Shown: piece by piece, positions 13,713-54,088 of the stretch | Numbering within the stretch: the first letter of the stretch is position 1 | How the letters are laid out: each line of letters starts with the position of its first letter | Source: Quercus robur | Lineage: Eukaryota; Streptophyta; Magnoliopsida; Fagales; Fagaceae | Assembly: GCF_932294415.1 (NCBI RefSeq) | Contig: NC_065535.1 | Coordinates: 69,185,362 to 69,249,361, forward strand | Direction: 5' to 3' | Length of the DNA stretch: 64,000 nt | Translations under genes and position numbers: made by a program | Notes under the pieces: generated by a model | Told to the model about the DNA's origin: nothing | The model's input: only the letters and a program-made list of their open reading frames with translations | The model's database searches: none

Positions 13713-13867
13713 ACTCGATCTCCGTAAAGGCGAGTTACTTAAGTAACTCGATTATGAAGAAACCGAGTTGTGGCCAGGTTCTTGCCACGCTGGTGTTCCA
13801 GCTTGGCTTTTGGGGAATAAAATATTCCCGCGTTACTGTTTGGAACTCGTCAATGGGGAAAACGAGT
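13713..13867. repeat. Array A of the 23-nt ACTCG-N13-CGAGT motif (3 copies)
   Basis: Exact copies of the pattern ACTCG, 13 bases, CGAGT lie at 13713-13735, 13746-13768 and 13845-13867. The first two start 33 bp apart, and the linker between them, TACTTAAGTA, is itself a palindrome. The array is preceded (about 13630-13690) by a 'ggccttttgccct...ataatgcccctgttt' segment. That segment resembles the arm of the fold-back element at 38803-39241, so it may be the subterminal region of the same transposon family. Confidence 0.85.
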
Positions 13868-13909
13868 TATATGCGGAATATGAACCAGTTTTTAAATGTA
13901 ACGTCTCTA

Positions 13910-14188
13910 AAACTGTTTGTCTTCCTTCCTCTGCAGTCTACAGTCTCTCTCCCTTCCTCAGTCCGATCAGTAGCCACCGCCAGTCTGTTCAGTAGCCACC
14001 GTCAGTAGCCACCGTCAGATTCTCCTGTTTCTACCCGCACCCAAACCAAACCGTTCAGTAGACCCTTTCCGAAGTTGAATCGAAACCCATACCCATACCC
14101 ATACCCATACCCACACTTATTCAATCTCACCACAGCCGAAACTCAACCCAATCTGTCTTCGGAGTTAAAGGATTACAAACGTATTAAG
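13910..14188 (+). other. Possible 5' UTR exon of an unidentified transcript
   Basis: Downstream of array A is a CT- and C-rich stretch like plant leaders. It contains an AGTAGCCACCG(T/C)CAG repeat (about 13969-14018) and a (CCCATA)n run (about 14086-14113). It ends at 14188 with AAG, followed by GTAATT, a good splice donor. The layout motif-array, leader, donor is the same as at 42.9-43.2 kb. No downstream coding exon could be tied to it. Confidence 0.35.
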
Positions 14189-15664
14189 GTAATTTGTAAA
14201 TGCTGAGTTCAAATTTTAATTTTTTCCCTTTGCATGTAATCTGATTTGAGTGTGGCTTCCTAAGTTTTTCGCTGTTAGATTGTTGTCTATCTGTATTCAT
14301 AATTATTGTTGCTGTTTTAGCTTTGTTGGGTTTGGTTTTGAAGTGGGTTTGGTTTTGAAGTGTTTTATGACGCACATCTAGGGCAGAAATTCATGTAAAA
14401 TACAGTTAGCATGACAACGGTGTTCATTGTTAGGGGAAATTGGTTTGTAATTCATATAGTTTGAAAGTGTATCAAATCAATCTCTATTTTTTCCAGAAAT
14501 TATGTCACAAGTTATGTCATGATTTTGAATTAGGGAAAATTTCTTTTTAATTCAATGCTGAATGATGTTGAATTGAGAAGCTATTGGTTTTACAAGCTTC
14601 AAAGTTACTGGCTTTTACAAGCTTCCACTCTGTTTAGTTATTATTATAATAGATATAATATGTGTATAATGGATATGCACGCATATATCTACACACAGAC
14701 CATGGACATCCTAAAACCTTTGCTGCCATTTACTCTGCTTACGGCTGTAACTGTGCCATATTGTTTTTATTCAACATCTAAGTTTTGGTTTGTAATTTTT
14801 TTTTTTTTTCATGTCATTATCCTTGTAATATCATATGGGAACATATAAACTTACTTACCACATCAGTTGAAAGTCACTTACATTTTGTGTACAGATGCAT
14901 AATTGATTGTCTTAAGAGACTAGAATTGTCTTAGAAGTTTAATTACTTTTTTTTTTTTTTTTTTTTTTTGGTTATTAGTATTCCTAGCCTTTGTAAGAAA
15001 GGATTTAGAAGTAGCCTATATAATGAACATTCCAACTTTTTTCAATCGCAATTGCTATCTCGTACCTAAATGTGAGTGCTTAGGAAAGCCTACGTGTGAT
15101 TGGCCAATGTTTTATCTTTGTTTATTTGATGTTCTTTTTATTGTTTAAATACCAAACAGCCATCAACACAATCAATATGTTATCAAGAATCTAGTTTAGT
15201 GTTGAAATTCCTAAAAAGGTTACATCAAATTTGGTATTAAAGCCCGTTCAAGCTCCTGTCTTGTGTCAGATTAGCAGCTTCTGTGGGTTATGTTTGTTGA
15301 CTAAGTACATCGAATTATTATTATTATCATCTATTACATTTGGGGTTGAAAAGGGAAGTTAGTGGCCTTAGTGGCCTTTTAGGGTCACCCAATCCTTTCA
15401 TAATAGGTTGGGTTAGGTTAGGGAGCATTGAGATTTGTGGTGGCTTTTGGGAATGGAAATAGTACATCCTCTAGGGTGCTTCTGACGGACCTAGGGCTTT
15501 GTTTATTTATTTATTTTTTTGGTGGTTTGGCCTACTATACTTATTTCCCTAGGGTATTGATTTCTGTGTGTCAGAATTAATTTTTGACTCTATAAAGTGT
15601 AGGCTTTTGAATGGGGTTTGATATGTAATTTAATTAATGGAAAATAATGGAATATGAATTGCCA
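14189..15664. other. Intergenic or intronic spacer
   Basis: AT-rich sequence with T-runs at about 14798-14810 and 14947-14970. I see no conserved coding segment. If the leader ending at 14188 is real, this would be its intron. Confidence 0.4.
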
Positions 15665-16110
15665 CTAGGCTTTTGATGCAGATGGAAAATTGCAATAAAG
15701 AAACAAAGATGGAAAATGATAAAGCCTCACATGAAATCCATGTATTAAACCACTCTCCTCAATTTTCTTCAATATCTTGGGCGAAACCTCCATGATTACA
15801 TGAAACAAAAGAGGTGACAAAAGATCTCCTTGTTTCAAACCCCGTGTGCTTAAACCCAACAGGGTGGAGCCATTAACCTATGTTGAGAAATGAACAGTGG
15901 TGACACAAGGCCTAATCCACCTCCTCCATCTATCCCCCGAACCCATTCTGCTCAAAAGATTAAACAGAGAATCCCAATTCACATTATGCTCTTTCTATGT
16001 CCAGCTTGTAGGCCACATCCGGGATACAACTCTTCAATTTTCCATCTAGGCACTCATTAGCAATGAGTACTAAATCTAAAATCTGCCTACCACTAAAAAA
16101 CATCCATACT
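15665..16110 (-). pseudogene. LINE (L1-type) reverse transcriptase fragment
   Basis: The minus strand shows, in order, the LINE RT signature [30 protein letters not shown], then RWRRWIRPCVTTVHFST, a stop in place of the next residue, VNGS, and STRGLKQGDLLSPLLFHVIMEV. The last block is the usual (S/T)RGLRQGDPLSPLLF core of plant L1 elements. Frames shift at least once and stops occur (for example TAG before VNGS), so it is dead. The catalytic YxDD segment is not preserved. No poly(A) tail or target duplication was found. Confidence 0.8.
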
Positions 16111-16997
16111 AGGTGCTCAACAATCTCAACCAAGTATCAATCATAACAAAAGCATCCACTTTGATATCACAAATTTCGCCACAGGGATTGATAAAAATCA
16201 CATAAATTCTTCTTAATTACATATAATTAACTCACATAAATTATGCCAATAAGCATGCCATGAAAAAATACACAAAAATATTACAAAAGTAGGAATTAAA
16301 TTGAGATTTTGAGAGAGAGAGAGGTCATGTGGGTTGGCAGTGATAGTGGGGCAGGGTGGGTTGGTTGCTGTGGGGGGATGGGGGTGGTCAATGGATTGGG
16401 AACAAAAAACAGCAAAAATAATTACAAAAAAAATGTTCACTGTGGGTTATCTTGGCTAAAACTGGTGGATTGCTGGTCTAATCTTTTGTGTTGGAAGAGC
16501 TTTATTGGTGGACTCGTGCAATGGTTTCGCTTGTGGTTTGGAGTGGTTAGCTTGGGGGAGGGAGTTGGCTACTTACTCGGGGGTTGGAGGTGTTCTGTTG
16601 TGCTCTCTGAAAATGTTTTATGTGTTTTAAGGCCAGGCCTAAAACATTTTAGGCCTCTCTTAATTGTGTTTTCCCACCCAACCTAAAATATTTTCAGGAA
16701 AACTAGGATTCACCTGCACCAAACACATAAAAACAATGAAAACATTTTTGGAAAGCGACAATCTTTTGCGTTACTGTCAACATATTAGGCTTCACGAACT
16801 ATTCCTTGGTGGACAAAATATACAACATTTTTTCTTTGACAAGAAATACCGATTACTTCTTTAAAACAATACTATATTTTATTTATTTATTTATAGAGAT
16901 TTTTTTTTTTTTTGGTTGTTGGCCATAATAGAAAATGCTTTTTTTTTGGGGGGGTGGTGGTGGTGGTGGTGGTGGTGGTGGTGGAAAGGGGGTTTAT
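16111..16997. other. Spacer with (GGT)n microsatellite and a near-palindrome
   Basis: A (GGT)n run of about ten units is at 16951-16983, preceded by T- and G-runs. It produces meaningless poly-Val and poly-Trp frames. At 16635-16656 an AGGCCT-AAAACATTTT-AGGCCT near-palindrome stands inside a degenerate repeat region. A GA run is at about 16313-16322. No gene is recognised. Confidence 0.55.
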
Positions 16998-17922
16998 TCA
17001 CAGTAGCCTTGGAACATGCCTTCTCTTTGGATTTGGCCCATTCCCCTCTTCTATTTTTTCTGCATTGCCTACCCCCTCACTGTCTCTTGATCCAGTTAAC
17101 TGAGTGAGTGCTGTTTGAGCAGATTCTTGATCTCTCTCAGGAACTGTATAAGCTGGTACCACTTGACTTGACTTGGTCCAATTTCCAGCCTGGCTTTTGA
17201 AACCCAGATCTGGCTTAGTTTTCACTTAGATCACTACCTTCTTTTGCTCGCTTAATACTGGGTTGAGGCTTTGGATGATTATGAGTGCCTTTGTAGACAA
17301 TTTCAATTATATGTCCTGCATGAGAACGCTCAACCTTTTTATTGGCAGGGCAATTCGGATATGTACATTTGTAGTAGCTTCGTGGATATTCACTGCCTTT
17401 AACTTTCTTCTTCCCATATATACACCACTTGTAGCCATCATTGGCAGGCTTATCAACAGCAATAGTAGGCTGGTATGTCCTATCAGAATGAGAAACCTCT
17501 TCTCTTGTTTCTGCAACACCTTCCTCCTCACAGTCACTTTTTGTTTCCAATTGACTTAGAATGTTCATATTTCCGGCCAGATATTGCGAATCACTAATTT
17601 CTTTTGCAAGCTTGTTAGGCATTTCATGATTATGTTTGCCTTCGTACTTAATTTTAGGCATTTCTCTGGCAGGAGATTGCTCAACCCATTTTCTGACATT
17701 ACAACCCACACATGTACATTTGTAGTAGCTTCGTGGATATTCATTGCCCTTAACCACCTTCTGCCCATATTTACGCCATCTGTACCCATCATCGAAATTG
17801 AAAGGATTAGCAACAACAATGGTAGGCTCACTATCCTGGTATTTCTTATCAGAATGAGATGCCTTTGATGATTCCATCCTGGAAAATCTTTGATAATTGA
17901 TGCTAGTGTAGGGACTGAGTAG
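16998..17922 (-). pseudogene. WRKY group I-like gene fragment with swapped domain order and a frameshift
   Basis: WRKY proteins are plant transcription factors that bind W-boxes. The minus-strand frame is open from a splice-acceptor-like CACAG at 17923-17927; the first ATG is at 17877. Domain 1 (residues 29-87, WRKYGQK at 34-40; zinc ligands C54, C59, H82, H84) resembles the C-terminal WRKY of group I ([21 protein letters not shown]). Domain 2 (residues 147-205) resembles the N-terminal WRKY ([28 protein letters not shown]). Its heptad is WCIYGKK instead of WRKYGQK, with ligands C171, C176, H199, H201. The frame stops at 17215-17217. The expected group I linker (SQAGN..SSQ..PERDQES...PNPKRR) continues in a second frame from about 17225 to 16998, so there is a frameshift at about 17220. 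Order C-type then N-type is the reverse of group I. Domain 2 is unlikely to bind DNA. Confidence 0.8.
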
Positions 17923-17927
17923 CTGTG

Positions 17928-19101
17928 AAAAGAAAATTTTTTGTTAGGAAAAATTACACTGTTCGATCCTAAACTTTTACTCTGATTACAATGTCCTCCA
18001 TGCTTTCGAAATTCATTAATGACTCCCCAATTTTATAACCTTGCTACAATGTCCTGCTGTCTGTGTTGGTGTTATATTAACAAAAAAAGTGGCACACGTG
18101 CATCACACTTGACATGTGACCCCACTTAACCAGCTGAGTCACAAATTTCCATGTCTGTTTGTAAACTGTAAACATTTTGCAATAAAATCGATAGCAGTTT
18201 TTGATGCAGGAGCATCTAAGCTTGTAAATGTGAAATGCTGCTTTGTAGTTTTTGTAACAGGTTGCTGAATTTCCTTTTTTTAACTAGTTAGTTGTTAAGT
18301 CTTTTGTAACAGCACAAGATTGAGAGCTCTTTTTTAACCACTTAGTGAGGCTATTGATTAAACAATTAGAAGGCATTACCATGGGTGAATCAAATGAGAA
18401 CAGTCAAAGATGAAAAATGATAAAAAAAATTAAAAAAGTACGAGTCAGTGATGGGAATGTAATTGGCTTAGTCTATTGGGATGTTTCAGATGATGAAGAG
18501 TTCTATCGGGACCTTCCTTAGTCTAAACTTGAATGTACTGTTATTTGATTGCAGTTTTCTTTAAAGACCTTTTAATTTGGGAATTTTAGATGATGAAGAG
18601 TTATCTTGGGACCTTCGTTGGTCGATCTGAAGTTGAATTGACTTGACACTTATTTGATTGTTTGTTTTTGTTTTTCACTGTTGGATTGCTTTTAATTAAG
18701 TTCTCCCAGAATGAAGACAATTTGGTAAATTCTAGGTCTTCTGGAATGGGCTGGCCTTGGCTGCACCAAAGGCCTTGTCGCCTCACACCTTAGGGCATCG
18801 GGCCATATAAGGCCTTGGCACCTTAAGGTTGCCTTTCACCTTTAACTACCTTGACCCTATTTCTAGTTGACTTAGGAAAGCCAACTATTGATTTTAAAAA
18901 ATCTACTTGATTTGAAGAAAAGAAATGAATTACTAATAACCTAATTTACGACCAAGACTTGACCAATAAAAATATAATTGACTTCTAAGAGAAAAAATAA
19001 TCGACTTCATAAAAACAAATGAAGGAAAAAAACCCAAAAGAGAAGAAAGCAAAGGTCTTGGACTGTTATGGTCACCAATTCAGTGTTCATTTGACACATA
19101 A
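17928..19101. other. Spacer between WRKY fragment and copia element
   Basis: No coding potential. Two similar phrases containing 'gatgatgaagagtt-tc-tgggaccttc' occur at about 18490-18520 and 18590-18616, a short diverged duplication. A 'gaaggccttgtcgcctcacaccttagggca..aaggccttggcacctt' stretch (about 18770-18830) is repetitive. Confidence 0.45.
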
Positions 19102-19106
19102 CTATG

Positions 19107-20215
19107 TGAAAGTTCAAAAACGTGTACAAAACACCTTTGAACGTTTAGACCCCCAAATTACAACTTAACCAATTCAAGCAATATGTCAAACAACTAGTGT
19201 GCGGAAACTTAACATATGCTATAATATGAAATTGGTTAAAAACTATCTAAGCCAAAACAGAATAAAATCCACAGCAGATAATATAAAGGCAAAGATAGAG
19301 AGGAAGGAAGATGCAAACACAAAGACAACACGCGATGTGTTATCGAAGAGGAAACCGAAGCCCTCGGCGTAAAACCTCTCCGCCGCCCTCCAAGCGGTAA
19401 ACAATCCACTAGAAAATACAGTTGGGATACAAGGACAGCAATAGACCCTCCAAGCCTAATCTACCCAGTGCACCTAAGCCCTCCAAGCTTCTTGCTCCAA
19501 CGAGGTTGCGCCGAACCTTTTTCTTTTCTAGCTTCCCGGATTCCGCTACTAGACCGTAGCATCAACCAATGAAGATTGGTTCCTTCCTAACTGCTTCCCA
19601 GAAACCCAAACAGCTGTCTCACAATGATGATGATGGTGAGAACCAGGTTTGGTATAATGCCTCTCAAGGATTTGACAATGGAGAGGAAGAGAGTTGAGGA
19701 ATTTGAAGAGACTCTAAGATATAGATTGTGGGTGAAACAATCTGGTTTTTCTTTAGGGTTTCTCTCTCAAAATTCTCTCTGGAAGCTCTCTTTCAATCGT
19801 GGGTAAAAGGGGTATTTATACTGGAGTGGGAGAGGAATGTGAAACATCAGATTTTACAAAACAGGGGTGGCTTGCGGCTTGACCTCGCGGCTTGACTAAG
19901 TCGCGAGATCCAGTCGCGAGTTAACCGTATGGCCAGTTGTCCTGTTTTGTCCTGTAGTGCTCCAGCTAGCATAACTGTTCATCTTCCAGCATGCTTGGCA
20001 CGTGTGCTGCTTCTGGCGGCTTGCAGCCGCGAGTCACCCGCGAGTCCCAGCCGCGAGTCTCTGTTTTCTTGCACACTCTTGAGCAATCTTCACTCTATCT
20101 CACTCACTACCCTTACAACAAACCCACCTAAATACAGGGTTACTAAATGCTGAATTACAAGCAAATTTGGCACGGAATAAAGCCAATTAGATGGTTGAAT
20201 AAATTCAACCTTACA
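19107..20215 (-). repeat. 3' LTR of the SIRE-type element
   Basis: 1109 bp, equal in length to the copy at 27615-28723. It holds GTCGCGAG/CCGCGAGTC clusters (about 19871-19922 and 20028-20062), unlike its AT-rich surroundings. It also encodes the same short meaningless frames as its partner. Confidence 0.93.
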
Positions 20216-20949
20216 ATCTCCCCCTTTGGCTATTCCGTGACAAAACCCTAAAACAGACTCTAGACTTAACATGTGAGTTGGGAACAGTTGAACAAAACTC
20301 ACTCACACCTAACTCTAGAAGCTGTGAAGCACTTGAATCATATGAACATAATACTCCTGAAACACAACAATACACCATGATCATTGTAAGCAGAAAATTA
20401 TAAATGCATATGAAACAGGCAATATGTGATCAAGCAAAGATGGAGTTAAGAAACAAACCATGGCTTGATCAACCAAGTGAACACCACAAGGTAGTGATCA
20501 CAGTGCTCATTCACACTTGGAATGAACACAAGGACATACAAGTTAACAAGCACAAGGCAAGACACTTGTATGCTCAACACTCAACCAATGCATAACACAC
20601 AAGGCATATGCATCTAGGAACAATCCTACAAGGGCACAAGAGTGACAGTACATAAACCAAAATGCATAACATTTAGATTAAAGTACTGATTTCAACATAG
20701 CATAAAGGCTGCATTAAGCAAGGTACATACCATAAAGCCTACAAACTATGCATAAAACATTAACCCTAAAAGCTTACAAAAGCACATGGGTACAAACACA
20801 AAAACATCCTGAATAACAGTTTACAAAACACAATATATCAACTTAAAGAGAAAATTGAAACTGAAGAAGAATGTAAAGACACTCCCCCTTAGGTAATATC
20901 CTCCCCCTCTGATCATGCCTATCACTCCCCCTTTTTGTCATGGAATAGG

Positions 20950-22044
20950 CTAGTCATCCTTTTCCAGCTTTCTCTTAATTTGATCCAATTGAGTTTGAAG
21001 AGAAGTAAACTTCATATCCCATCGAGTGCTTTGATGGTGTAGAGAAGCTGTGAGTCCAGACATCTTTGTATTCAACTCGTGGACAGAGGATACAATGCGA
21101 TCAAGTTTCTCATCTAGGGAGAGAGTGCTAAACTGAGAGTCACTGTGAGATGCAGAAGTTTCTGGTTTGGCTCTCTTCCGACTATGTCCAATGCTTGCAT
21201 TGAATGTACGCATGTTGATTGGACTTGGTTTGGAGATAGGAGATTCATTAGCCGTTGGATAAATTCCCTTGAGCTTCAAGATCCGTGAAATGAGACTGCA
21301 GAAAGGAACGCATATCCGAGACTCAGTTCGAAGAACCGTTTTGCGCAAAACATGAAAGATATGAGCACAGATGTCTATTTCCACATCAGAGATTAGATCA
21401 TGAAGAAACAAAGCACGTCCGAGGTTCATATACCCAGTGCTTGATAAAGGGTACAAATTGTGAAACATCACAATTGTAAGCACTCTCAGTTTTGGAGAAA
21501 GAGAGGAAACACTGATGGATTTGCCATTGGGTGAGAACTCCAAGTCTTGACCAAGACTTTCTTTGAGAAGCTCCTCATCAGGACAGAGATCATCATAAAC
21601 CGGTGAATGTCGGAAAATGGGTCTGTTGATGTGAAGAATTTCTGCCAGATATGTAGGAGAGACAGAAAAGCTCTTTTTCCGAACCCAGCACTTAAGTTCA
21701 TCTCCTTCCACAATTGCGTTAGCATAAAATTCTTTTACCAACTCTTCATACGCGTCATCCGGATCAGAGAGAAGGTAATTCCAATCCTTGTGAGCAAACC
21801 ATTTCGGAATGTCAGTGTCATGAAGTGAGGACTGATCCAAAGCTCTTTCTAGTAATGGTTTGGCATGTAGAAAGAAATTCTCATAAGACTGATAGGCTGC
21901 ATATGATCTGAACTTGTTGGGATCGAATCTCTTTGATGAAGAGCGAGTCCCTTTTGGTTGAGGTGGGTAATCATCAACATCAATTACTGGTTCCTTCCCT
22001 TTGGAACTACCTCCTTCCACAGCAGCTTTCTTGAATGGTGACAT
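20950..22044 (-). CDS. Extra ORF of the SIRE-type element: 'putative plant transposon protein' with C-terminal coiled coil
   Basis: A 364-aa frame lies between pol and the 3' LTR, in the same direction as pol. SIRE/Maximus elements are known to carry additional ORFs at this place; their role is not established. The protein has a basic, Ser/Lys-rich N-terminus (residues 1-45). The core, about residues 50-260, contains LVKEFYANA, CWVRKKSFSVSPTYLAEIL and MFHNLYPLS, and matches the plant-transposon-protein domain family. A Ser-rich hinge (KRAKPETSASHSDSQ) follows, and residues about 305-362 form a predicted coiled coil (VSSVHELNTKMSGLTASL). The same order of motifs appears in the gene at 55146-56328. 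There is no signal peptide or membrane segment, so an envelope role is not supported. The frame is intact. Confidence 0.8.
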   Translation of the reverse strand: MSPFKKAAVEGGSSKGKEPVIDVDDYPPQPKGTRSSSKRFDPNKFRSYAAYQSYENFFLHAKPLLERALDQSSLHDTDIPKWFAHKDWNYLLSDPDDAYEELVKEFYANAIVEGDELKCWVRKKSFSVSPTYLAEILHINRPIFRHSPVYDDLCPDEELLKESLGQDLEFSPNGKSISVSSLSPKLRVLTIVMFHNLYPLSSTGYMNLGRALFLHDLISDVEIDICAHIFHVLRKTVLRTESRICVPFCSLISRILKLKGIYPTANESPISKPSPINMRTFNASIGHSRKRAKPETSASHSDSQFSTLSLDEKLDRIVSSVHELNTKMSGLTASLHHQSTRWDMKFTSLQTQLDQIKRKLEKDD

Positions 22045-24028
22045 GACCAGTCTGCATTATGAACAAGGGAAATGACAGAACACAATCCAACAGACTATAT
22101 TAGCAGTGGGTTAGTGGAAATTTAGGGACAACGAAGAAACCCTAATAGCTGGATGAAAATGGTCAGAAAATAGCAATGAGGGACACAAATGGCCCAAATT
22201 GAACTACACAGTAGAGGGAGTCCAAATAGAACCACATAATCAACTGAAAAAGGACCCACATTCAACAACACATCAACAGGATACCACACAGGATCATAGT
22301 GAAACACGACATCAACAGCAGATCAGACAAAAATAGCTAACCCTAGCTAAGCACATGATGAAGAACACAACCACCAAAATAAACTGGCTCAAAAACAGAA
22401 ACACAAGCTTCCATAAGCTAAGCATGGACAAAGAGTAATAGTTGAGCTAAAAACCCATCACAAAATCACAATCAAATGTGAATAATCCAGAGGGAAAACC
22501 ATAACAACAAGTAAAATAGAGTTCAAGACAGAAAAACCATACCTGTTAGTCGACGATTTTGAGCTGAAAAGAGGCAAATAATGGAGATCGAAAATGGAGG
22601 CACGGTGTGAATGGGTAAGAGCAGATGAGAAAGACAATGAACAGTCACAAAAAGATCGAGGGAAAAACAAAAAGTTTAAAAACTGCCCCTGTATGTCCAA
22701 AACATGCGATTTTCGCGACTGAAACGAGTCGCCAAAAAGTCGCCAGATCAAGCCGCCAAAACACTCAAGGACAAAAATTTGAAAAATTTTTCTAAGTGTT
22801 TTTCGCGACTAGAAGGTCTACCCGCGAGTGAGTCGCGAGCTGAGCCGCGACAATCTCTGAGTAAACCACGCGACTGGACCTTCCACTCGCGAACAAGTCG
22901 CCAAAAATTACCCGCGAAGACGCGACTGAGGCACGCGACTTGACATACCCGCGACTGAGCCGCCAAAACAAGGCAAAACTGGATTTTTGAAATTTTCAGA
23001 TTTTTCAAACAAAAGACTTTCCAAAAATACCTAAAACACTCAAAAATCTTTTTGTGCTTAAATTAACACAGATTGAGCATGTGAAAACACATTTCATCAA
23101 GTACAATCACACAAATGAATATGGCATTTATTGAACATAAACTTGTGTGTTGTGTGTGGATATCAACAATGAGATAGTCCTTCGTCTAATGTGAAGCTTC
23201 AATGATCAATTCAACCAAGGCATACACAATTAGCACTAGATCATGTGACCCATCTCAATTATAGAAATATGTATATATGACCTCCCACACAAGTTGATAA
23301 CATAACTTGGAGCTTATCATTTGACTCCACTTTCAATCATAACATTTGATCTTTTTGATCTTTTGAGGCAATCATCTCTCATTGTGAGAGTGATATATGA
23401 CATTTCACTTTAAAGAACAGGCCTTTGGCCTTTTTTGAATAAACATTCACTTTAATATAAGGTCACTTACCCTTTTTCCTAGTCAAATACTAGAATGTGC
23501 GACAGGCTTTTGCAGCTCAATATCTCTTTTCATTTGGAGATTTACATTTGGTGAGCTCTTTATAGCAAAACAAAAATAAAGAGTGGGAAGATATATAGAC
23601 ACAAGTCTATGCATGTCTCAAGATCAACAAAACCATTCACTAATCATTCATGACAAGTTTGAAGATCTATTTACAACAATCACAAAGATTTCAAGATTTC
23701 TCCCACAGAGATATGAGTGCAAAGAAACAAGCAATGCTCGAAAATGCACAAAGCCATTAGCACAAAGGTACAAGGCAAAACAAGTTTTGAGAAAAAAACT
23801 CAACAATGTCAATCAAGCTTTCTGATTTTCTAATTTTTATGTGATTTTTGGATTTTTGACACAAAAGAAGAAAATGATTGAACAAACATAAAAAGAAGCA
23901 ACAATATTCACAAATGGACAAACAAACAATAAACATGTTGCACAAAGAGCTAATCAAAGAGGTGTGTGCCCCAACACAAACAGACTTATCATATTATAAA
24001 TATGTGAAGCACACAACACACAAGAGAG
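22045..24028 (-). other. Internal spacer of the SIRE-type element, with CGCGA-rich motif cluster
   Basis: This non-coding stretch separates pol from the extra ORF. Between about 22711 and 22965 lies a dense cluster of GCGACT, GTCGCCAAAA and CCGCGA words on both strands. It gives a local GC peak, and the same vocabulary is found in the LTRs. The rest is AT-rich with many stops. If the extra ORF is made from a spliced message, this is where its leader or intron would lie. Confidence 0.6.
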
Positions 24029-27523: not shown

Positions 27524-27600
27524 GGTATATTCCAAAACAACAACCACAACACAGGGGTCTAGGATCACACTTAGGTAATAAAACCACAACAAGTGTACCC

Positions 27601-27612
27601 GCTCTGATACCA
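27601..27612 (-). other. Primer-binding site of the SIRE-type element
   Basis: On the minus strand TGGTATCAGAGC stands two bases after the 5' LTR end. It is the complement of the 3' end of initiator tRNA-Met, the usual primer of plant copia elements. Confidence 0.9.
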
Positions 27613-27614
27613 AT

Positions 27615-28723: not shown

Positions 28724-28728
28724 CTATG

Positions 28729-41235: not shown

Positions 41236-41250
41236 AGTGTAAATTTAGAC

Positions 41251-42871: not shown

Positions 42872-42904
42872 ATTGTTACTGGTTTATTTGATAACTATGT
42901 CTAG

Positions 42905-43229: not shown

Positions 43230-44950
43230 GTATGTCCTGGACATAATGAATGTCCATTATAATTTTTGTTTTGTTTAGTTAGAAGTGAAATTGATTCATT
43301 AAAGTGTAGATGTTGTTTGCTGTGTTACTCATTATCGTAATGTCCATAGATTTGTGATGTTGATTTTAAAATAACTGGGTCTTGCTGTCTGATTTCTTTT
43401 CAAATTTCTTTGTATCTGTCATCTTCAAACAAAATATTTGTAGATTCGTTCGTGTGTGTCCATCATAATGTTTGTTTTGTTTAGTTAGTAATGAAATTGC
43501 TTCATTAAATTGTAGATTTCGTTTACTATGTTAATCATCATCATGTCCATTTTTTAGTACTTATAGCAGACTTTGTCGTTTATTTTGTATGTTGATTTCA
43601 AAATAATTGGGTCTTGCATGAGTCATTTCAAATATATCCATGAGTCATTTCAGTTAACTTATCTTATTGTCATGCAACATAATTTGAGTTGAAAAAAGTC
43701 ACAGAGAAAATGTAGGGACACAATGTTTGTGTTACAATTTTTACCACAAATTGTGAGTGTTGGAGAAAAAGTTAGAAGTTTATATGAAAGTGATAGGAAG
43801 CAAATAATAGTCTATCACATCAAAATTGTGGCACAAAAGTTATGATTCTAGAAATAACTCATAATGCAATTTATTGGGAGTAGTAGACCAAATACATTTT
43901 TTTTTTTTTTTTTTTTGTGTGTGCCTAAAATGTACTTTTAATCACCTTTAAATTGGACTCTTGATTTTTAGTCATTTAGGATTTTAAATCTCGACAATTA
44001 TAATGATGTCAATTTATTTCTTTTCTTGTGGTCAGACACATTTTTACCATTAATGTTACTAAAAAATACATTTTTTAGTAAGATTATCTAAAACGATGTT
44101 GTCTTTATTAGTGTCAAGATTCTAATAGATGCTAATAGATGTTAACAAAATGTGCACAATAATATGGTTGTATACTTACAAATTTTTATAAGTAAATCGA
44201 TTTAGAAGAGATCATAACAGTTAAATTATATGATGTAAAACAAAAAAAAAAAAAAAGTCTAGAGACACAGAAATTGTATACCTAAAATTTCACCCTTTTT
44301 GCCTTTAGAGGGTGCTAAAGTTATATGATTCAATACTTACAAAAGTAATGTTACAAAGAGGTACAAATTTTAACACATGTTAAATTGGTAGGTTATTATT
44401 GATTCTCATGTTGTTTAATATTGACATTACTTTTATTATCCATAATGAACAATATGCCACGTCATACAATTCTAAAATTTATTATGAATTTTAGTATGTC
44501 TACATACTTATTGTATTAGTCCCAGTGTTCTGGGCTCGGGCCTGTGGCCTTTGTCTATGCTTGCACAATTTTTCAGGGTGAGGTATACGTGGGTTAAATT
44601 TAGTCCAAATTTGGCCAATTAAATCAGTTGTGTCTAATTGTTAAGTAGTAATAGTAGATTGTTTGTTCCTTTTGTTGATTTTAAATTAATTTGTCAGTCT
44701 ATTGTATTAGTCCCAGTGTTCTGGGCTCGGGCCTGTGGCCTTTGTCTATGCTTGCACAATTTTTCAGGGTGAGGTATACGTGGGTTAAATTTAGTCCAAA
44801 TTTGGCCAATTAAATCAGTTGTGTCTAATTGTTAAGTAGTAATAGTAGATTGTTTGTTCCTTTTGTTGATTTTAAATTAATTTATCAGTCCTTACTTTTT
44901 CTTACAATTACTGAATTTGTTATCAATAATTTTTCTTTAAATTGGTCTAG
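43230..44950 (+). other. Leader intron of the BED-finger gene
   Basis: AT-rich, running from a GTATGT donor at 43230 to a TCTAG acceptor at 44950. It includes a T-run (about 43890-43916), an A-run (about 44240-44255) and the 191-bp tandem duplication listed separately. No coding sequence. Confidence 0.5.
44510..44890. repeat. Near-perfect 191-bp tandem duplication
   Basis: 44510-44700 is repeated at 44701-44890 with only about two mismatches by eye (for example AATTTGTCAGTCT against AATTTATCAGTCC at the ends). The unit contains TCTGGGCTCGGGCCTG and GTGAGGTATACGTGGG. It is non-coding, inside the leader intron. Such high identity implies a recent local event. Confidence 0.92.
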
Positions 44951-45902
44951 ATGGAAAGTGATCAGATGATTCGCACTGACATGACGAAAAAAGGAAAACA
45001 GCCTGACTTAGATGCCCAATTGGATGAAGTGTCTGACCTTCCCGAGCCAAAGAAGGCAAAGACTGAGCTCAAAGTCTACAAGAGGAGGACTTCAGCTGTT
45101 TAGCGTGACTTTGAGATGCTTCCAACAAAAGGCAAAGAACGGCCTTCATGCAAATGTAAGCAGTGTGGAAAGAAATTTATTGCTGCCGGAGCATTTGTTC
45201 AGTATAATTTGAAGCGCCATTCGGAGTTATGTCGAAAGAAATTGGAAGTGCCATTGAGCATTCCTGTTTCTACAGGTAATGCATTTTTTATTTATATGTT
45301 GGCTATCCAAAGTTATAAGTTTATGATTTAAAAAAAAATAATAATATATATGTCCAAAAGGTTCTGGATTTCCCATAAAGTACAAAAATGTTTACTTTAA
45401 ATATTAATGATGAGGTGGTGTAGAGAAAAGTTGAAATGGCATTGAAGTTGCTATATGGACGGAGGATTTGAGTTATGAAAATAGAACATATAGAATGTGC
45501 ACAATCTTGGCGAGAATTTAAATGGAATAATCTGATGAAAAATTATGCATGATGGTATGGTTGATACCAATGTAATACATTATATTCATGCATATTTTTT
45601 AGAATCGTTTTTGGATTTTGTTGGCAGACAGTAGACACTACAAAAAATTTACCAATCATTTTTTTTCTTACTACTATGCAAATGACTTATTTGTTTAATT
45701 GATTCATTGCTTACATTGCTTCATTACCCATAGATTTTAAATTTCATATTTATATCGTTTATACGTTTTTAATGTTTCATTCAATTCATTTGATGTAGAC
45801 CTTGTACAGCCACAATTGGAAGAGGTCAGTGAAGATAAAAAGAGCATGGAGATCAATAACGATGAGCACAAGGAAGACAGCTCTTCTAATCCAGTCTCTT
45901 AG
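44951..45902 (+). pseudogene. Small BED-type zinc finger protein gene with a premature stop
   Basis: Exon 44951-45275 follows a TCTAG acceptor and opens with ATG; exon 45799-45902 ends in TAG. Junctions are GT-AG and in phase, giving about 143 codons. Codons 51-95 form a BED finger: a basic stretch (KVYKRRTSAV), then the finger with Cys pair CKQC, and NLKRHSELC supplying His and Cys. BED fingers bind DNA and are typical of hAT transposases and derived factors; here there is no transposase domain. The frame is broken by TAG at 45101-45103, exactly where BED domains carry a conserved Trp, so a single TGG-to-TAG change is the likely lesion. The second exon is acidic (EEVSEDKKSMEINNDEHKEDSS). It lies behind array B and may be an accessory gene of the neighbouring element. 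Confidence 0.72.
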
Positions 45903-47950
45903 TGATGTCTGAAGGCTTTTTGATATGGCACTTGGATTTTGCCATGAACGATAATTTTCATATGCGGTGTAATCATTTTGGGTTTTTATTATCTTAATCT
46001 GTTATGTGTTTTAGTTTTTCATATGGAACTGAAAATGGCATCTAATAGGAGAATACTTGGTTATTTATTATGGAACTTTGACATGGTATTGTTGTTTACT
46101 TAGTATGGACTGTGGAACATTTTGGACTACTAGTTGTTTTAGTGGAAGAATTGCCGAAGTATTTGCATTTGTCGTTATTTTGATTTTTTTTTACTTGATT
46201 TATGGTTGAATTCTGAATGTACATACATGGGCAACATAACAGGTTATTCAACAATGTGGGAGTGGAATTCAAACGTGTTAAGTGTAATTTTTTTTATTAT
46301 TATTATGTTTTGAATTTGAAACAACAAAGAACAGGCCGAGATAGTTTTTATTTATTTATTGTTTTTTCAAAATATAACCGTGGTACATATGTTTTTTTTT
46401 TATAGAAGTTCACTTTTTTCATTACATTGTTTGCTTTCAATTTTTATCAATTTAAGAGTTTAAACCATTTCTTATGAATTAGAGATAAAGATAAGTTTAT
46501 TACATTAAGGGTATTTCATAATTTTCATTAGTTGTTTAGCGCTTTCCCTGAACATCAGGGGCAATCTCAAAAAATAAAATATTATAAAATTTAGTATTTA
46601 GTCGAGTTTTTATCATTTTGTACTGAACCTGAGGTTTTTTTAAGATTATGTATTAAAATAGTCTAGGGGTTTCTCTTATTTGGAGTCCCCATTTATTAAT
46701 TAAGTGAATGTCCTTAACATCTATATTTAAGTTCTGACTATTGAATGAAAGGTAAAAATACATGTCTAACTTGCACCAAAACATTGCCTCCAAAATAGGA
46801 TTACTCTCCTGATGGTATTCAAATTACTTTATTCACTTATAAAAAAAATTTCATTAAAACAAACACGTTTGTTTGAGAATACATCTGCCATGATAACTGA
46901 TTAAAAAAAAAAATTATAACAATGTGGTACCAAAAAAGAACACACACATCTGCCGTTATTGAAAAAAAAAAAAAATCAATTACCTTTATTTAAAGAAAAA
47001 TAAAATTTTGTAATAATCGTAGCACAATTCTTATCTCAATCCAATTATCACAACAATGATGTTTTGAACAATTACAAAAAAAAAATAAAATAAAATAAAA
47101 TAAAATAAATCCATAAGAAATAAAAACAATAAATAAAAAAACCTTCAAAAAGGTCATCCACTCTTTCTTACCTACGTACAAGTTTAAACTCTCCTCATAT
47201 AAAACAGAGAAAATAAAATTCAGTTTCATGATCATGAAACAGTTACAGTCTATCAGTTACAATATTATTTGACTCTGTCTATCCTTATCCTCATGTCTCA
47301 TCTGCAAAAGGTCCTTAGAAAAAATGGTCAACATTCTTTGACGCTGAGTCAAATGATCAATTCTGTCGAAGTAAGGAATGAAATGGTCTTTTTCTTCCCA
47401 AGTATGTTTAAATTTATTTGGAAATGTACATTTGTATATGTTAAGGTCGAATAACTGCATATTACGTAATTAAACAGTTTGGCAAATGCCCATACATGTT
47501 TCATTGCTAGGTGGTGTGCATATCTGGATTTTATGTTCCAATATGGCTCAATGTCATGCTGCAAAATCATAACCGACACGGGGTATATTACATTAGCATT
47601 ACGACAACTAACCTATTGCTCGTTATATTCGCAACTTAATTATATACAAGTTTTTTTTTGTTTTTCCTACGCAAAAAATATATAGAGAAAATACTTATTG
47701 GCTATCCAAAGCCAAGTACAGTTACCAAAACAACATACCCAATGTTAACAACAATACAAGCAATTACAGGCCAACAGGCTAAGACAGATTCCAAATTAAC
47801 GTTCAAAAGGGAAACAAAAAAGATATTCAACAACACTTTAGCCCATCTGTACTGCAAACGTGAGCCATAGGGGTCATAAAAACACATATATTTATATATT
47901 TAGTATTACTAGATTCATAAATGCCACAAGCAAGAGCCATAGTTTCACCT
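45903..47950. other. Spacer, no gene recognised
   Basis: AT-rich with A-runs near 46902, 46965 and 47072, and an (AAAAT)n tract at about 47081-47110. Several short frames are present, but none shows a family motif. The first 200 bases probably include the 3' UTR of the BED-finger gene. Confidence 0.4.
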
Positions 47951-48494
47951 TCATTTCGTGCTTCCTTGTCGTGTCGAATCATGAACTTCATCATCCCCCA
48001 TAACATGGGCTACCACTTCACTTAGCATGTTAGTACTCAAGGTTGCAATCCTCCTTGCGTGGTCACGCTCCTCAATAGCAACGTTTAACTGATACCTCAA
48101 CAATCTGTTCCTAACGTCTCCATCGCAATAGCTAGTTCCTTCGCTTTGAGATGCCATTCCAGAACTTGATGGCGACATGGTAGGAGATGTCCACGATTGG
48201 GAAGCACCATACTGCACGTTCCTACCATTATGTTGCATGAACTCCATGTATGCAGATTCTGCTTCCCGTCGATCCTTGTATGACTTGTGTTCAGCGTTCG
48301 CGAATCTATGAACTTGTCTACTTGCTTCTGCCCAATTGTCGTATATGCCAGGAGCACGACCAACGAAAACAACATAGTATCTGCCACCCTAAAAGAGTTC
48401 GTACAACAACACTGTATGTTAAAACCATATTTGTTGTGCTAGGGTTAGAACTTACGAAGTTTCGAAATTGAGGTATTAGATAAAAATGTACCAT
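47951..48494 (-). CDS. Small protein with RNase H1 N-terminal (viroplasmin-like) domain, 146 aa
   Basis: Exon 1 ends with the start codon itself (ATG at 48494-48492, then donor GTACAT). After an intron (48491-48389, acceptor TTTTAG) exon 2 runs 48388-47951. The product begins M-GGRYYVVFVGRAPGIYDNW, continues VHRFANAEHKSYKDRREAESAYMEF, and so has the whole RNase H1 N-terminal fold (Y-V-V..G..PGIY..W, H-K-S-Y-K-D, A..A). That fold binds RNA:DNA hybrids in RNase H1 and is also found in caulimovirus viroplasmins. Residues 50-85 are Ser/Gln/Gly-rich; residues 90-146 are helical with RDHARRIATLSTNMLSEVV and an acidic end. No RNase H catalytic domain follows, so a binding role is inferred. The split ATG explains why the domain is missed by simple frame scans. 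It is transcribed away from the MULE transposase across array C. Confidence 0.72.
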
Positions 48495-48752
48495 GTTGCT
48501 CTACCAACAGGTGCCAGTGGACTGCAGCAACGTTGACGTTTCTTGTTAAAAGATCTGACAAACAGTTGCATAATCAGCATTTGGTTTGTACAGTAGTAAA
48601 TTATTTAATGACAAGTACAAAAAAAGGTGGGCATGTTACCTCTAGAAGCGAAGGAGGCTTCTCTTCTCCCTGTCTGAATGTTTTCCTCTGCCAAGGTTCC
48701 AATCCACAAAGAGAGGAAGCTGTCATCTTATATAAAGTGGAATACCTGTTGT

Positions 48753-49072
48753 ACTCGATTGTACAAATATCGAGTAAAACATATAACTCGCCTCTCCAAA
48801 TGGCGAGTATAAACAACTGTCCTAACGACCAGTTTGGTGAAGTAAATAATACTCGGTCTCCTCAGGGACGAGTTTTATTTAACTCCATTTCAGAATCACT
48901 GTGCGTTCTGCTGATAGTTGTAGGTTTTAATAGTACTCGGTGTTTGAAGAATCGAGTTATATGTAACTCGATTTGTGCAGAGACGAGTTATATTCATGAC
49001 GTACACGGTTTTAATAGTACTCGGCTTCAGTATAATCGAGTTATATATAACTCGATATCCTGAATGCCGAGT
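48753..49072. repeat. Array C of the 23-nt ACTCG-N13-CGAGT motif (7 copies), possible bidirectional promoter
   Basis: Perfect copies start at 48753, 48786, 48851, 48935, 48966, 49019 and 49050. The first pair is 33 bp apart and the last two pairs 31 bp apart, with AT-only linkers such as TATATATA. The array sits between the RNase H1-N gene (minus) and the transposase gene (plus). A TATATAA element at 48729-48735 reads as TATA box on the minus strand, about 235 bp before the minus-strand ATG. Confidence 0.9.
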
Positions 49073-49319
49073 ATTGTCCAACCATAACACACCCCCCACC
49101 CGCCCAACTTTCTGGGACCACTTACCAATTATATTTGATACTGTCGTTCTGAAGTCTGGACATGGACCGGTCTGCGCTTGCAACCATTGTGTCACAGCTA
49201 GTGAGAGGTTTCACCTTCAATTAACCATCTGCACAAAGCACGCTAATTCAAGAAAGTGCACTTCATCTTTGTTCTGTCAACATCTCAGTTGATAGGTAAA
49301 TACTACTTGATAACACTTT

Positions 49320-49795
49320 ACAACAACACAAATTTTTTTATTGCTGTTGTGGGTGTTGAATTGGGGTATCTGAACAAAATTATGTAGTACAAATTTTGAG
49401 AACAAAAATTATTTCAATGTTGTGGGTCTTCAATGCTAAGTATCTGAACATAATAATGTGGTACATGTTGCATGCTAGGAATTATATAACTGATATTTGC
49501 AATGCTTTTGCATGCTAGGAATTATTTCAATGCTTATGAATTATCTCCCTTAGAGCAACACGAATTTTTTCAATGTTGTGGGTCTTGAATGGGGACATCT
49601 GAACATAATACTGTTGTGGACAATTTTTGAGAACACAAATAATATGAATGTTGTGGGTCTTCAATAGGGGGTATTTGAACATAATAATGTGGTACAATTT
49701 TTGAGAACATAAATTAGTTGAATGTTGTGGGTCTTCAATGGGAGGTATATGACCATAATAATGTGGTCCATATTGCATGGTATGAATTATCTCGC
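49320..49795. repeat. Degenerate tandem repeat, ~75-80 bp unit, upstream of the MULE transposase
   Basis: About five imperfect copies of 'gttgtgggt-ttcaatg-gg-tatctgaacataataatgtggtac' occur at about 49345, 49420, 49575, 49650 and 49725. They are separated by 'aatttttgagaacacaaat' or 'attgcatgctaggaattat' segments. Open frames on either strand here only reflect the repeat. Confidence 0.8.
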
Positions 49796-50040
49796 TTATT
49801 TGCAATGCTTTTGAGTTCTCATTTGTTGAACAATAGCCAGCATGAAACCCGACCACATTGTGCAAACATTTTCGTTATCGAAATGAACTCTGATGGAGTA
49901 GACGATATAATTATTCAATAGTAATTTTTAGCATGTTCAGCACAATTTGCTTAGGTACATAGGGCATGTATAGTTAGCCTATGCTTTCACAATATTACGC
50001 AGCATGATACAATTATTACTATTTGTGGTTTAGGTCCGTT

Positions 50041-52662
50041 ATGAGTCCACATTACTTCTATGTTTACTACAACAGGGAGGCATATATTAATGATTTGCAC
50101 GGGCTATCATACCAAGGTCCGAACCAAAAGCAGACGCTTATTGAAGTGAAACGTGGGATACACACGAGAAAACTTAAACGGAAGATAATGTCAACTATGG
50201 GGTTAGACAAGGATACCCACGACATCTCCATTGTATTTCGGGCTCCGCAGCAACTAGTAGGTACCCAAGTGTTCTACAATTCAATTCCGTTACAATGCGA
50301 CAATGATGCAAATATAATGTGGGGAGTGATAAAGCGGGCAGGGCAATTCATAGGTTCTGACTTGTATGTAACTGTCCACACTGTTGGGTTCAATGTCGAT
50401 GGGGGTTCGCAATATGGCAGCAGAGTTGGAGAGCAAGAATCAATTCCTGTAACCATTGTGCACCCATCAGTTACACCCGAGACATCTTTGCCCTACAACT
50501 GTCAACCATGGAATGGGGTTGCTATGGACAATACTGAAGACGCCGAAGTGTTAGGGTCTATCCATACCCATGAGGATGAAGGATATACTCACCGAAATGA
50601 AGATATCCAAACCTACTTGGACGAGGCAACCGAAATGGATGAGACTCGAGATGTGTATGAGGAGTTCATTGATAACGATGGACCGGTAGAGAATCCAGAA
50701 TTGTTAGATGAACTACAACCAGAAAATAATCCGAACCTTAACCCCGAATGGTTCACGTCAAACACATGGGATGACATTAATGACCCATCACCTTTCCTGG
50801 AAACAGGTCTGCTGAGTTGGCGACCGGGGGACGAACCGAGCAAGGGGATGCTATTCAAGAATAAAGCTGCGATTCAGCACGCGCTAACCATGTTCTCCGT
50901 TGGGCTGAATAAAAAATTTAAGTACATGAAGTCAGACCCCGAGAGACTGGTTGTAACGTGTGTACACGATGCATGTCTGTGGTCAATTCGAGCTATCTAC
51001 AGCAAAAGGCACAAGCTGTGGATGATCACAACATCTAAGGGTCCCCACACTTGCTCGACACTCCAAGTGGATCATGATGGAAGGATGATGGATTCGAAGT
51101 TCATTGCCATCACACTTGAGTCATACGTACGGGAAGACATTTCAAGAACAGTAGCAACCCTGCGTAGTGTTCTTCATGCGAAGCACGGCCATTGGGCGTC
51201 TCACTATAAGGTTTGGGATGCAAAACAGAAAGCCGTTGCAGCCATCTACGGTGGTTTCGATGAGTCATACGCAGAATTGCCTCGGTTCCTGGCAACGTTA
51301 AAAGATGCAGATCCAACCACAGTGACACAGTTGAAGTGCGACCACCGTAGTGTGCCGGGAACTTGCACATTTAACTGTGCCTTTTGGGCTTTTGGTCCGT
51401 GTATAGAAGGGTTCAAGTATTGTAGGCCGGTGATAAGCATCGATGCAACGCACCTCTATGGCAAGTACAAGGGGAAGTTGTTGATAGCAATGGCAACGGA
51501 TGCTAACAACGAGGTTTATCCACTCGCGTTTGCCGTTGTTGAGAGTGAGAGCAAGGAGACATGGGGATGGTTCTTGGCATGCCTGAAACGATATGTTACG
51601 GACCGGACAAATCTTTGCATCATCTCTGACCGACATTCGGGTATAAAAGCTTGCTTTGATGACACAAGGATGACTTGGTTGCAGCCTCCCCAGGCCCATC
51701 ACCGGTATTGCCTCTGCCATGTAGTTAGCAATGTGAACACAAAATGGAAAATTCCGGAGTTGAAGAATATGGTATGGAGGGCCACAAGCGCGAATCAAGT
51801 TAGAAAGTTTCAGGCCACACTGGATTTAATTCGCAATGTCAAACCGGCTGCACACAGGTACTTGGAAAATGAAAACAAAGAAAAGTGGACACTTGCACAC
51901 GACGGAGGGCGTCGATACGGAGCAATGACAACCAACCTATCGGAGTGTTTTAATGGAGTACTGAAAGGTGCACGCAGCTTGCCAATCACGGCAATGGTGA
52001 GGTACACCTACTTCAAAGTGAACTCCTACTTTGACGCTCGTTGTAATCTCGCTCTAGAGCAATTGGAAGCGGGTCAAGAATGGTGCAAGTATGCCATGGA
52101 CAAGTTCGAAAAAAACCAAGCGAAGGCAAAGGACCATATGGTGACACGGATGTGCACATAAGCACGATTATATCAGGTTGACACACCGGGTAATCCTCTA
52201 AGTAATGGGGGCGGACAACACACACACAGGGTTGATCTTCAGGGTATGACATGCACATGTGGAAAATGGGAAGCATACAAGATGTCGTGTTCACACGTAA
52301 TAGCAATTTGTGCTAAGTATAAGCACGATGCGCAGCAGTTTATTGATCCTTGCTATAGCGTGAGTCATAGGTTCCATAGCTATGAACCGGTATTCCAACC
52401 GTTGAAAGACAGATTAGCATGGCCGGATCCGGAAGAAACTAGAGTAGTGATGCCCAATCCGCACCTGATCCGGAACAAAGGTCGGCCAAAGTCCACACGA
52501 ATCCGCAATGAGATGGACGAGAATGATAGGGAGTTGCCGACCTCCCTATGGATCGAGAATGGACCCAAGTCAAGATGTGGGTTGTGTCGCCAAGAGGGGC
52601 ACAACCGTAGAACATGTCCTACTCAAAATGCGGAGTCAACTAGCGGTGGAGCTGCATCATAG
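50041..52662 (+). pseudogene. MULE (MuDR-type) transposase, one in-frame stop, otherwise complete
   Basis: Mutator-like transposases cut and paste DNA between long TIRs. The frame runs from ATG at 50041 (after a possible acceptor GTTTAG) to TAG at 52660-52662, 874 codons, with one TAA at 52159-52161 (codon 707). Order of domains: PB1-like MuDR N-terminus (residues 1-115, KRGIHTRKLKRKIM); acidic linker (about 160-255); MuDR zinc domain beginning WRPGDEPSKGMLFKN; MULE transposase core with candidate catalytic D468 (SIDATHL), D530 (IISDRHSGI) and E635 (LSECFNGV), and the C-x2-H (YCLCHVVSN); SWIM zinc finger after the stop (CTCGKWEAYKMSCSHV); C-terminal zinc knuckle CGLCRQEGHNRRTCP. The downstream part stays in frame, so the stop (probably a former Gln codon) is the only visible lesion. 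TIRs and a 9-bp duplication were not located. Confidence 0.92.
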
Positions 52663-53455
52663 GTAAAGGTCATATATCTCCTACAACTTTTGTCATATAT
52701 AAATTGGCACTATTAAGAACTCAGTAGTAGTGTCTTTGTTCTCTATTGCCATAGTAAGTATTTGGACTAGTCATGAAACAAACACTGGTGTTCATGCATG
52801 TATAGGCAAATGAGGTTGTTTAGTTGTTTTTGTTACACTATTCGTCGTAAGTCTTGTAAATTTTTCCTGTTCTGCCTATGTTGCGTGTTAATAACTTATA
52901 TAAGTCCAGTGTACATAACATTTTTTAACTATTTACAGTAGGTACGGCAGCCAAGGTGGATGGGTGCTAACGGACATACGTTGCGCAGCCAGGATGATCC
53001 CTACCTCTTTAATTGGAAGCAACCGAACGTCACCAGTTGAAGAGGCCCATGATGAGAAGACAAATGATATTGGTCATTTTTTGCTTAGAAGTTGATATTA
53101 AAGTTTGTACTTATGTAGTCATGCACTTTGTTAGTGCCTTTAATGTTATGTACTGATGGGGGTTTTACTAAGCCGGTCAAGCAAACAATTCAGTTAAAAA
53201 CGAAGTTATTGCAATGGGGTTTCACTAAGCTGTTTTAGTATGATTTCCAACTTCTCCAACTTTGTTGCATTCATATTTATATAGCAGTGGCAATCTCAAA
53301 AGCAACAATATAGGAGTGTGTTGCATGCCATGCACTTGTTGCTTCAAGAACATTGTAATAAACAGAACATACCTGGTGTAAAAAACTGACTGAGCTGCAA
53401 CAGGAAAAAACATGCAGGCCGAGTTGTAATATGTAGTGGAAGGTTGTTCTACAAA
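52663..53455 (+). other. 3' flank of the transposase gene
   Basis: Mostly non-coding. A CAG acceptor-like site at about 52938 is followed by a short frame, ATG at about 52960 to TGA at 53040, starting MGANGHTLRSQDD, about 26 codons. It could be a last exon of an alternative transcript or chance. Phrases containing 'ggggttt-actaagc' recur at 53160 and 53217. Confidence 0.35.
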
Positions 53456-54088
53456 ACTCGATTTTGTTAAAACCGAGTAACATTAATAACTCGGTAATAG
53501 AAAATTCGAGTACCATGTAGTCGTCTTTGAACACACACTGGAAAAAGACGTTACTCGATCTTATATTAAGCGAGTTAAATCTGTAACTCGACTTTAGAAA
53601 TATCGAGTATTACTGGAGAATTACTGATCAGTCGAACTGGCTGCGACCCATCGAAATGCATAGGAGTGTGTTGCAATGTGTGACTGTAAGAATCGATTGT
53701 TATTCGATCGCTGCGCGACCAATCGAGGAAGTCATGAGTCCAGCCATGATTGTCTGAAAAAACCGACTGTTGTCCGATTGGTTTCGATTGGTCATAATAT
53801 AAAACTCGATTATACTATTATCGAGTACTAACTAGTGTCTGAAAAATATAACCAGCAAGTACTCGCTCTCCGAGAAAGCGAGTTACTTTAAGTAACTCGA
53901 TAATTTAGTTATCGAGTACGTTGTATTACTCGCTGTCCTTGAAAGCGAGTAGATCTGCGATCCATCACAACTCCAGCCAAAGTTGTCTGTAAGAATTGAT
54001 TCTTACTTGATTGGTGGACAATCGGTCCAAATTATGTAACTCGGTTTTGCGTTAAGCGAGTAATTACTTGATTTTTACATTATCGAGT
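53456..54088. repeat. Array D of the 23-nt ACTCG-N13-CGAGT motif (10 copies)
   Basis: Copies start at 53456, 53489, 53553, 53586, 53804, 53861, 53895, 53928, 54039 and 54066; the last has ACTTG as left arm. Start-to-start distances of 33 bp occur three times and 34 bp once. Between copies lie blocks of the type CCAGCCA--TTGTCTG-AAGAAT-GATT..GATTGGT..ATCGGTC, a diverged form of the second block in array B. The two arrays are therefore homologous beyond the 23-mers. The array precedes the transcription unit of the gene at 55146. Confidence 0.9.

Follow-up and report, generated by a model that had tools for sequence, protein, structure and literature searches.

A 23-bp palindrome with fixed arm spacing is a signature of very large Mutator-type elements in Quercus robur

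The stretch analysed here, referred to as the window, comprises 64,000 nucleotides of Quercus robur (NCBI RefSeq assembly GCF_932294415.1, contig NC_065535.1, positions 69,185,362 to 69,249,361 of the forward strand). It contains a giant Mutator-like element (MULE) of 51,958 bp (13623-65580), of which the last 1,580 bp lie beyond the window (L068:1-1580). The element is flanked by SEO genes on the left (SEO_C) and by SEO-like frames, recognised by eye, on the right. It carries arrays of a 23-bp palindromic motif, ACTCG-N13-CGAGT. The features of the window are listed below, including terminal inverted repeats (TIRs), target-site duplications (TSDs) and long terminal repeats (LTRs).

13613..13622, no strand: left TSD copy, AAAATTCCAA, with 0/10 mismatches; the right copy lies at 65581-65590, outside the window
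13623..64000, plus strand: giant MULE, running on to 65580, with a TIR pair and a perfect 10-bp TSD
13623..13867, plus strand: left TIR, 245 bp, 235/245 positions (96%) identical to the right TIR at 65336-65580
13713..13867, no strand: array A1, three motif copies in the left TIR, the first at +90 from the element end
19107..28723, minus strand: nested copia retrotransposon, TSD CTATG, LTRs 98.6% identical, outside the motif system
30279..35398, plus strand: PMD gene exons (PF10536; 30279-31100 and 34952-35398), a plant mobile domain match
38801..39242, no strand: decayed small TIR relative, a 442-bp inverted repeat in which two motif remnants survive, each with 2 mismatches (38890 and 38981)
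42220..42871, no strand: array A2, ten exact copies and one degenerate copy, partly in a 239-bp tandem repeat and by eye upstream of a plus-strand gene start
47951..48388, minus strand: PF01693 (RNase H1 N-terminal domain) protein
48753..49072, no strand: array A3, seven copies between the divergent PF01693 (minus) and transposase (plus) genes
50008..52662, plus strand: MULE transposase (PF10551, PF03108, SWIM) with one in-frame stop after a 717-aa part
53456..54088, no strand: array A4, nine exact copies and one degenerate copy, lying after the 3' end of the transposase gene and before the PF20167 gene
55147..56328, plus strand: PF20167 ('Transposase_32') protein, 393 aa, open frame, with a predicted VANC21-like domain (61-273) and a long C-terminal helix (346-384)
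59859..60476, plus strand: 205-aa protein
61408..61728, minus strand: B3-like exon (PF02362), 28.9 bits, just below the cut-off of 30.1

The transposase, the TIRs and the TSD place the element in the MULE superfamily. Long TIRs are typical of MULEs, although not universal. One publication gives 8-11 bp as the TSD range of MULEs (PMC6446971). A simple scan for TIRs and TSDs close to the transposase on both sides (39-50 kb against 52.7-64 kb) returned one weak low-complexity candidate, which was rejected; the true ends lie farther out. Because the transposase frame stops after 717 codons, the window copy may not be autonomous. The copia retrotransposon is nested within the giant element and hence was inserted later; without it the element measures about 42 kb.

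Within the window, the motif occurred in 29 exact copies (three in A1, ten in A2, seven in A3 and nine in A4), and no copy was found at any other arm spacing from 0 to 30. Two further copies each had one mismatch (CAAGT at 42640 and ACTTG at 54066), in both cases a C-to-T type change at an arm CpG. This agrees with a preliminary description of the same DNA, which had listed 31 copies at these positions and six pairs spaced 33 bp start to start. In a ranking of 5-mer dyads that contain three G/C or more at spacings of 0-60, the motif came first, with 29 copies vs six for the runner-up. Moreover, 199 of 200 first-order Markov shuffles of the window contained no copy, and the remaining one contained a single copy. 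A fifth array (65166-65490) lies just past the right edge of the window and ends in the inverted TIR. In total, the giant element holds 34 exact copies, plus a one-mismatch copy at 65199, and none at N8-N12 or N14-N18. The outermost copy begins exactly 90 bp from both ends of the element, and none of the 34 exact copies fell within the 17,441 bp listed as coding sequence or nested insertion. The preliminary description had noticed no copies in the SEO exons, the PMD exons and the copia element. This holds for exact copies, but four one-mismatch matches were present in the copia LTRs (19899, 20036, 28407 and 28544). It had also placed the arrays next to transposon genes; the association with a transposon was right, but a single giant TIR element actually contains the arrays, in its interior as well as at both ends.

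In the whole genome (785.7 Mb), the exact N13 motif was found 8,286 times and the reversed pattern 434 times. Pooled counts were 1,084 for N8-N12 and 3,516 for N14-N18, a mean of about 460 per length other than N13. N13 thus far exceeds the other spacings throughout the genome. The motif also goes with a single transposon family, and the preliminary interpretation therefore passed both of the refutation tests set for it. The N14-N18 spacings were themselves raised relative to N8-N12. Their rows include words such as ACTCGAGT, in which both arms are present, as well as a longer related dyad, ACTCGATTTTGGNCTATAAATCGAGT (N16-N17), that recurs in the genome. N13 thus dominates without being the sole enriched form, and the longer dyad may serve a sister family of elements as its site.

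Twenty loci within the initial 5.9 Mb of contig 1, a non-random sample, were fetched, covering 39 of the 50 listed genome places with an exact motif. The other 11 places were C1:3273867, 3790205, 3808924, 4728916, 5951970, 5952004, 6529217, 6530137, 6539950, 6540029 and 6570583; two of these, 3790205 and 3808924, appear rich in GC and are possibly unrelated. Outside plants, a double-motif scan of viral contigs gave 0 matches. The same scan of non-plant genome contigs gave 43 stretches from many bacteria and archaea, unrelated by name, each with one pair and none with an array; these were taken as chance. Neighbouring copies were closely spaced. In the giant element a gap of 10 bp was the commonest (7/19 gaps <60 bp), and in the 20 loci gaps of 10-12 bp made up 4/5 of those <60 bp for exact copies and 23/44 when up to two mismatches were allowed.

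Many copies elsewhere belong to small elements. In the sample, 28 of the 39 exact copies sat inside small inverted-repeat elements, which measured 330-1,302 bp (12 measured) and whose ends read like GGCCAAAATGGGCATTTGCC. Sixteen small elements, one of them in the window, were inspected for TSDs, without a shuffled control: ten had exact TSDs of 9-10 bp, two had 10-bp TSDs with one mismatch, and four had none (L052, L054, L058 and the window remnant at 38.8 kb). For this remnant, a 10-bp 'TSD' was rejected since it lies within the TIR, and none was found at the ends; the remnant adjoins the PMD exons of the giant element. A copy with at most one mismatch started 87-93 bp from at least one end in 11 of the 12 end-defined elements (the exception being L064), and 15 of their 22 exact copies started at this distance from an end. 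A TIR profile built free of the motif found the TIR in all 11 building loci and in eight of nine held-out loci (none in L060), and also matched the window at 13630-13708 (array A1) and at 38.8-39.2 kb. One sampled TIR end (L048:3045-3436; C1:144044-144435) carries an array of five exact ACTCGAG-type copies. No partner TIR was found within the 6.5 kb fetched, and it is probably one end of another large element.

These data bear on the idea that the sites are bound by a transcription factor of the host, on which the element would rely for its expression. By eye, the internal arrays do lie upstream of gene starts (A2, A4 and the arrays of a second complete element described below), and A3 stands beside the TATA-like TTTATATAAG. 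However, the TIR itself was present at eight of the nine held-out motif loci, so the site travels with the element and not with host promoters. We know of no plant factor with an ACTCG-N13-CGAGT site, although no search was made for one, and we regard a host factor as very unlikely.

At least 68 genomic copies of the transposase were scored. The protein searches scored the best candidates (68 of 1,442 for the transposase, 105 of 6,660 for PF20167), so that these counts are lower bounds. The copies include one group with 91-97% identity, four of which have a stop-free frame of 884 aa, and a second group with about 67-68% identity and many intact 881-aa frames. The motif was present at all eight fetched transposase loci, with 20, 20 and 19 copies at 97% identity, 11, 12 and 12 copies at 68%, three at 84% and one at 61%. 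At six of these eight loci it was the commonest dyad with at least two G/C. When a 97% locus (L074) was compared with a 68% locus (L078) by blastn, the alignment was confined to the transposase; the arrays did not align, and the motif occurred in both flanks. One 68% copy (C35) is part of a complete element of 31,911 bp with an exact 10-bp TSD, CTAGTTATGG, TIRs (a 147-column match at 83%) and 23 motif copies, again with the motif 90 bp from both ends. Its transposase carries PF10551 and PF03108 (Pfam). Frames and Pfam matches give the gene order as PMD-like, PF01693-like (minus strand), array, transposase, array, B3 exons, array, PF20167 and the 205-aa protein.

Both complete elements thus share a set of genes for PMD, a PF01693 protein, the MULE transposase, B3, PF20167 and the 205-aa protein; the PF01693 frames are similar in the two subfamilies and the 205-aa frames closely similar. 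Named relatives of the proteins come from Quercus suber and Lithocarpus litseifolius, while viral contigs yielded no relatives of the PF20167 protein or the transposase. These results show that the motif is a conserved hallmark of one Mutator-type family with very large members (32 and 52 kb). The elements look mosaic, because the 205-aa protein (C35 frame at 24562-25176 of its stretch) is by eye about 90% identical between the subfamilies, vs about 67% for the transposase and 58% for PF20167.

Sequence constraint was compared in the window and three 97% relatives (L074-L076), with L075 as the reference for the window. In A3, 0/70 arm positions had changed vs 30/340 of all others (Fisher P 0.005), and in A4 4/75 vs 89/656 (P 0.04). 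Inner bases had changed at 13/89 (A3) and 28/99 (A4) positions, plain flanks at 16/239 and 54/505, and CpG sites outside the arms at 1/12 and 7/52. No arm of A3 differed across the window and the three related copies. Pairwise counts pooled over A3, A4 and the arrays of the second subfamily lack independence; they gave changes at 16/1440 positions for arms, 202/1872 for inner bases and 485/7733 for other positions. The 13 inner bases thus change at about twice the plain-flank rate and the arms hardly at all, perhaps through half-site shuffling or escape from small RNAs. Position -1 was A or T in all arms (68 in the window element, 46 in the C35 element and 78 in the 20 loci), and position +6 was mostly T or C, with G common in the 20 loci. 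Constant arms, fixed spacing and a variable centre form the pattern that a symmetric protein dimer would select.

A different reading of the dyads, as hairpins or cruciforms formed by DNA or RNA (for instance small-RNA precursors) rather than protein sites, depends on pairing inside the copies. We compared pairing within each copy with column shuffling. The 34 distinct copies from the 20 other loci did show longer pairing (P 0.02), but the window copies did not (68 vs 66.4, P 0.42), so that the partial inner palindromy noted earlier for the window exceeded shuffling only elsewhere. Furthermore, the arms are constant, and a stem of 5 bp that closes a loop of 13 bases is weak. This reading is disfavoured, and we give it hardly any weight.

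The VANDAL elements of Arabidopsis are a known case of transposons that counter silencing in a sequence-specific way. In VANDAL21, VANC21 is described as working through YAGTATTAY arrays (PMC5735166, PMC10398659), and one report gives VANC protein a DUF1985/DUF287 domain and motifs arrayed in one orientation (PMC5735166). The analogy with VANC drawn in the preliminary description was strengthened by an unexpected result: downstream of A4, a PF20167 protein is encoded whose predicted fold matches VANC21 crystallised on its target DNA (moderate models). Below this first-ranked match, the VIA-align rows were mostly coiled-coil or short partial matches. At the sequence level, 61 PF20167 proteins searched at E values up to 1 matched eight families but not DUF1985/DUF287, although HMMER filters can hide weak matches. 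A PF20167 gene lay downstream on the same strand for 60 of the 68 scored transposase copies, a count made without seven short fragments among the 112 PF20167 rows. Three diverged copies of PF20167 had no alternative dyad more than once in their upstream sequence.

By analogy, we propose that the motif is an operator-like site of this giant TIR MULE family and that its binder is most likely a dimeric, VANC-like PF20167 regulator, a putative assignment to which we give roughly even confidence. A symmetric dimer would bind one 23-bp palindrome, and the long C-terminal helix of the predicted VANC fold could serve dimerisation. Along the arrays, where copies are often 10-12 bp apart, neighbouring dimers would stack and bind cooperatively. 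The bound complex would lift silencing of the element's promoters and ends, or activate them, as VANC does in VANDAL, and small relatives that keep the +90 site would profit in trans, being both cleared and mobilised.

As a binder, the transposase is the chief competitor, since the +90 site is kept in the small relatives. In this case the motif would serve cleavage and synapsis at the TIRs, and the internal arrays would serve autoregulation of the element's genes. The motif stands at a fixed +90 in the TIRs of both large elements and also in those of gene-less small relatives, for which recognition by the transposase is all that is needed. It accompanies all eight fetched transposase loci, and Mutator TIRs are described as holding transposase sites and promoters (PMC3310237). 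On the other hand, 26 of the 34 exact copies are in the internal arrays A2-A4, far from the ends and without a known transposase task, and it is the linked PF20167 protein whose predicted structure resembles a sequence-specific DNA-binding protein. We consider the transposase a somewhat unlikely binder; the PF20167 and transposase readings are not mutually exclusive.

Other proteins encoded by the element (B3, BED-like zinc finger or PMD) are also candidates, as B3 exons occur in both subfamilies and the window element has PMD exons and, behind array A2, a BED-like zinc-finger exon (44951-45331, plus strand; C-x2-C ... H-x4-C by eye). However, the position of the B3 exons differs between the two subfamilies, and the exon in the window scored below the Pfam cut-off, whereas the second subfamily has two clear B3 exons. 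The BED-like exon has an in-frame stop and no Pfam match. Such a binder is improbable. In Arabidopsis, PMD proteins are reported to take part in silencing and to act on promoters that bear a 'DOWN' motif (PMC7156037), so the PMD gene may also share in control of the giant element.

In layout the oak system resembles VANDAL/VANC. Like VANDAL21/Hiun and VANDAL6 (VANA plus VANC), it combines a MULE transposase with a linked protein of (predicted) VANC fold, and a short motif is dense in the non-coding parts of the element, partly through tandem duplication. In contrast, the oak elements reach 32 and 52 kb, have long TIRs, carry PF20167 instead of DUF1985/DUF287, and have a palindromic 23-bp motif of fixed spacing that occurs in two subfamilies, at +90 in the TIRs and in small relatives. 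VANDAL TIRs are described as missing or short and degenerate, with TIRs in some relatives (PMC6446971). We did not place the oak elements in the VANDAL group because of their long TIRs, their palindromic motif and the lack of DUF1985 at the sequence level. With MuDR/Mu they share TIRs, a 9-10-bp TSD, a MuDR-type transposase and a conserved internal site in each TIR; they differ in that this site is a spaced palindrome at +90 that is repeated and also arrayed between several genes, and in that the element is far larger and multi-gene. The small relatives share ends and TSD size with MULE-derived miniature inverted-repeat transposable elements and Pack-MULEs, but keep the motif, mostly at +90. 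A review states that no Pack-MULE in one survey was longer than 7 kb (PMC6431247), and arthropod MULEs are reported at 1.4-10 kb (PMC13359780). The size of the oak elements is unusual in this light; larger plant MULEs may be described elsewhere. No description of the motif or element was found among the listed titles and opening lines of abstracts from an open-access library, which does not imply absence in print.

More broadly, we tentatively suggest that the PF20167 'putative plant transposon proteins' may be VANC-like anti-silencing factors that recognise specific sequences and together make up a broad branch so far overlooked. The one described here would act as a dimer on a 23-bp palindrome and clear a multi-gene transposon of 32-52 kb, with many small non-coding relatives exploiting its site. 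If PF20167 proteins act in this way, the anti-silencing strategy extends to another plant lineage and includes TIR elements that span tens of kilobases. Sites whose palindromic arms stay constant while the centre changes fast offer a clean system for studying how transposons retain a protein site and yet escape homology-based silencing, and small relatives sharing the site make it testable who pays for anti-silencing. The nested copia has its own PF20167 gene (20950-22056, minus strand), located between pol and LTR and 21% identical to that of the giant element, so a VANC-fold candidate entered a retrotransposon too. If the proposal is true, the strategy possibly reaches retrotransposons, and the simple fixed site is directly testable.

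Among the frames of 42.9-48.8, 60.3-63.0 and 13.9-17.2 kb (with the minus frames covered in part), Pfam matched PF01693 alone. Finally, an uninterrupted open frame of 242 aa with two WRKY domains (17215-17943, minus strand) lies inside the giant element and is apparently captured cargo.

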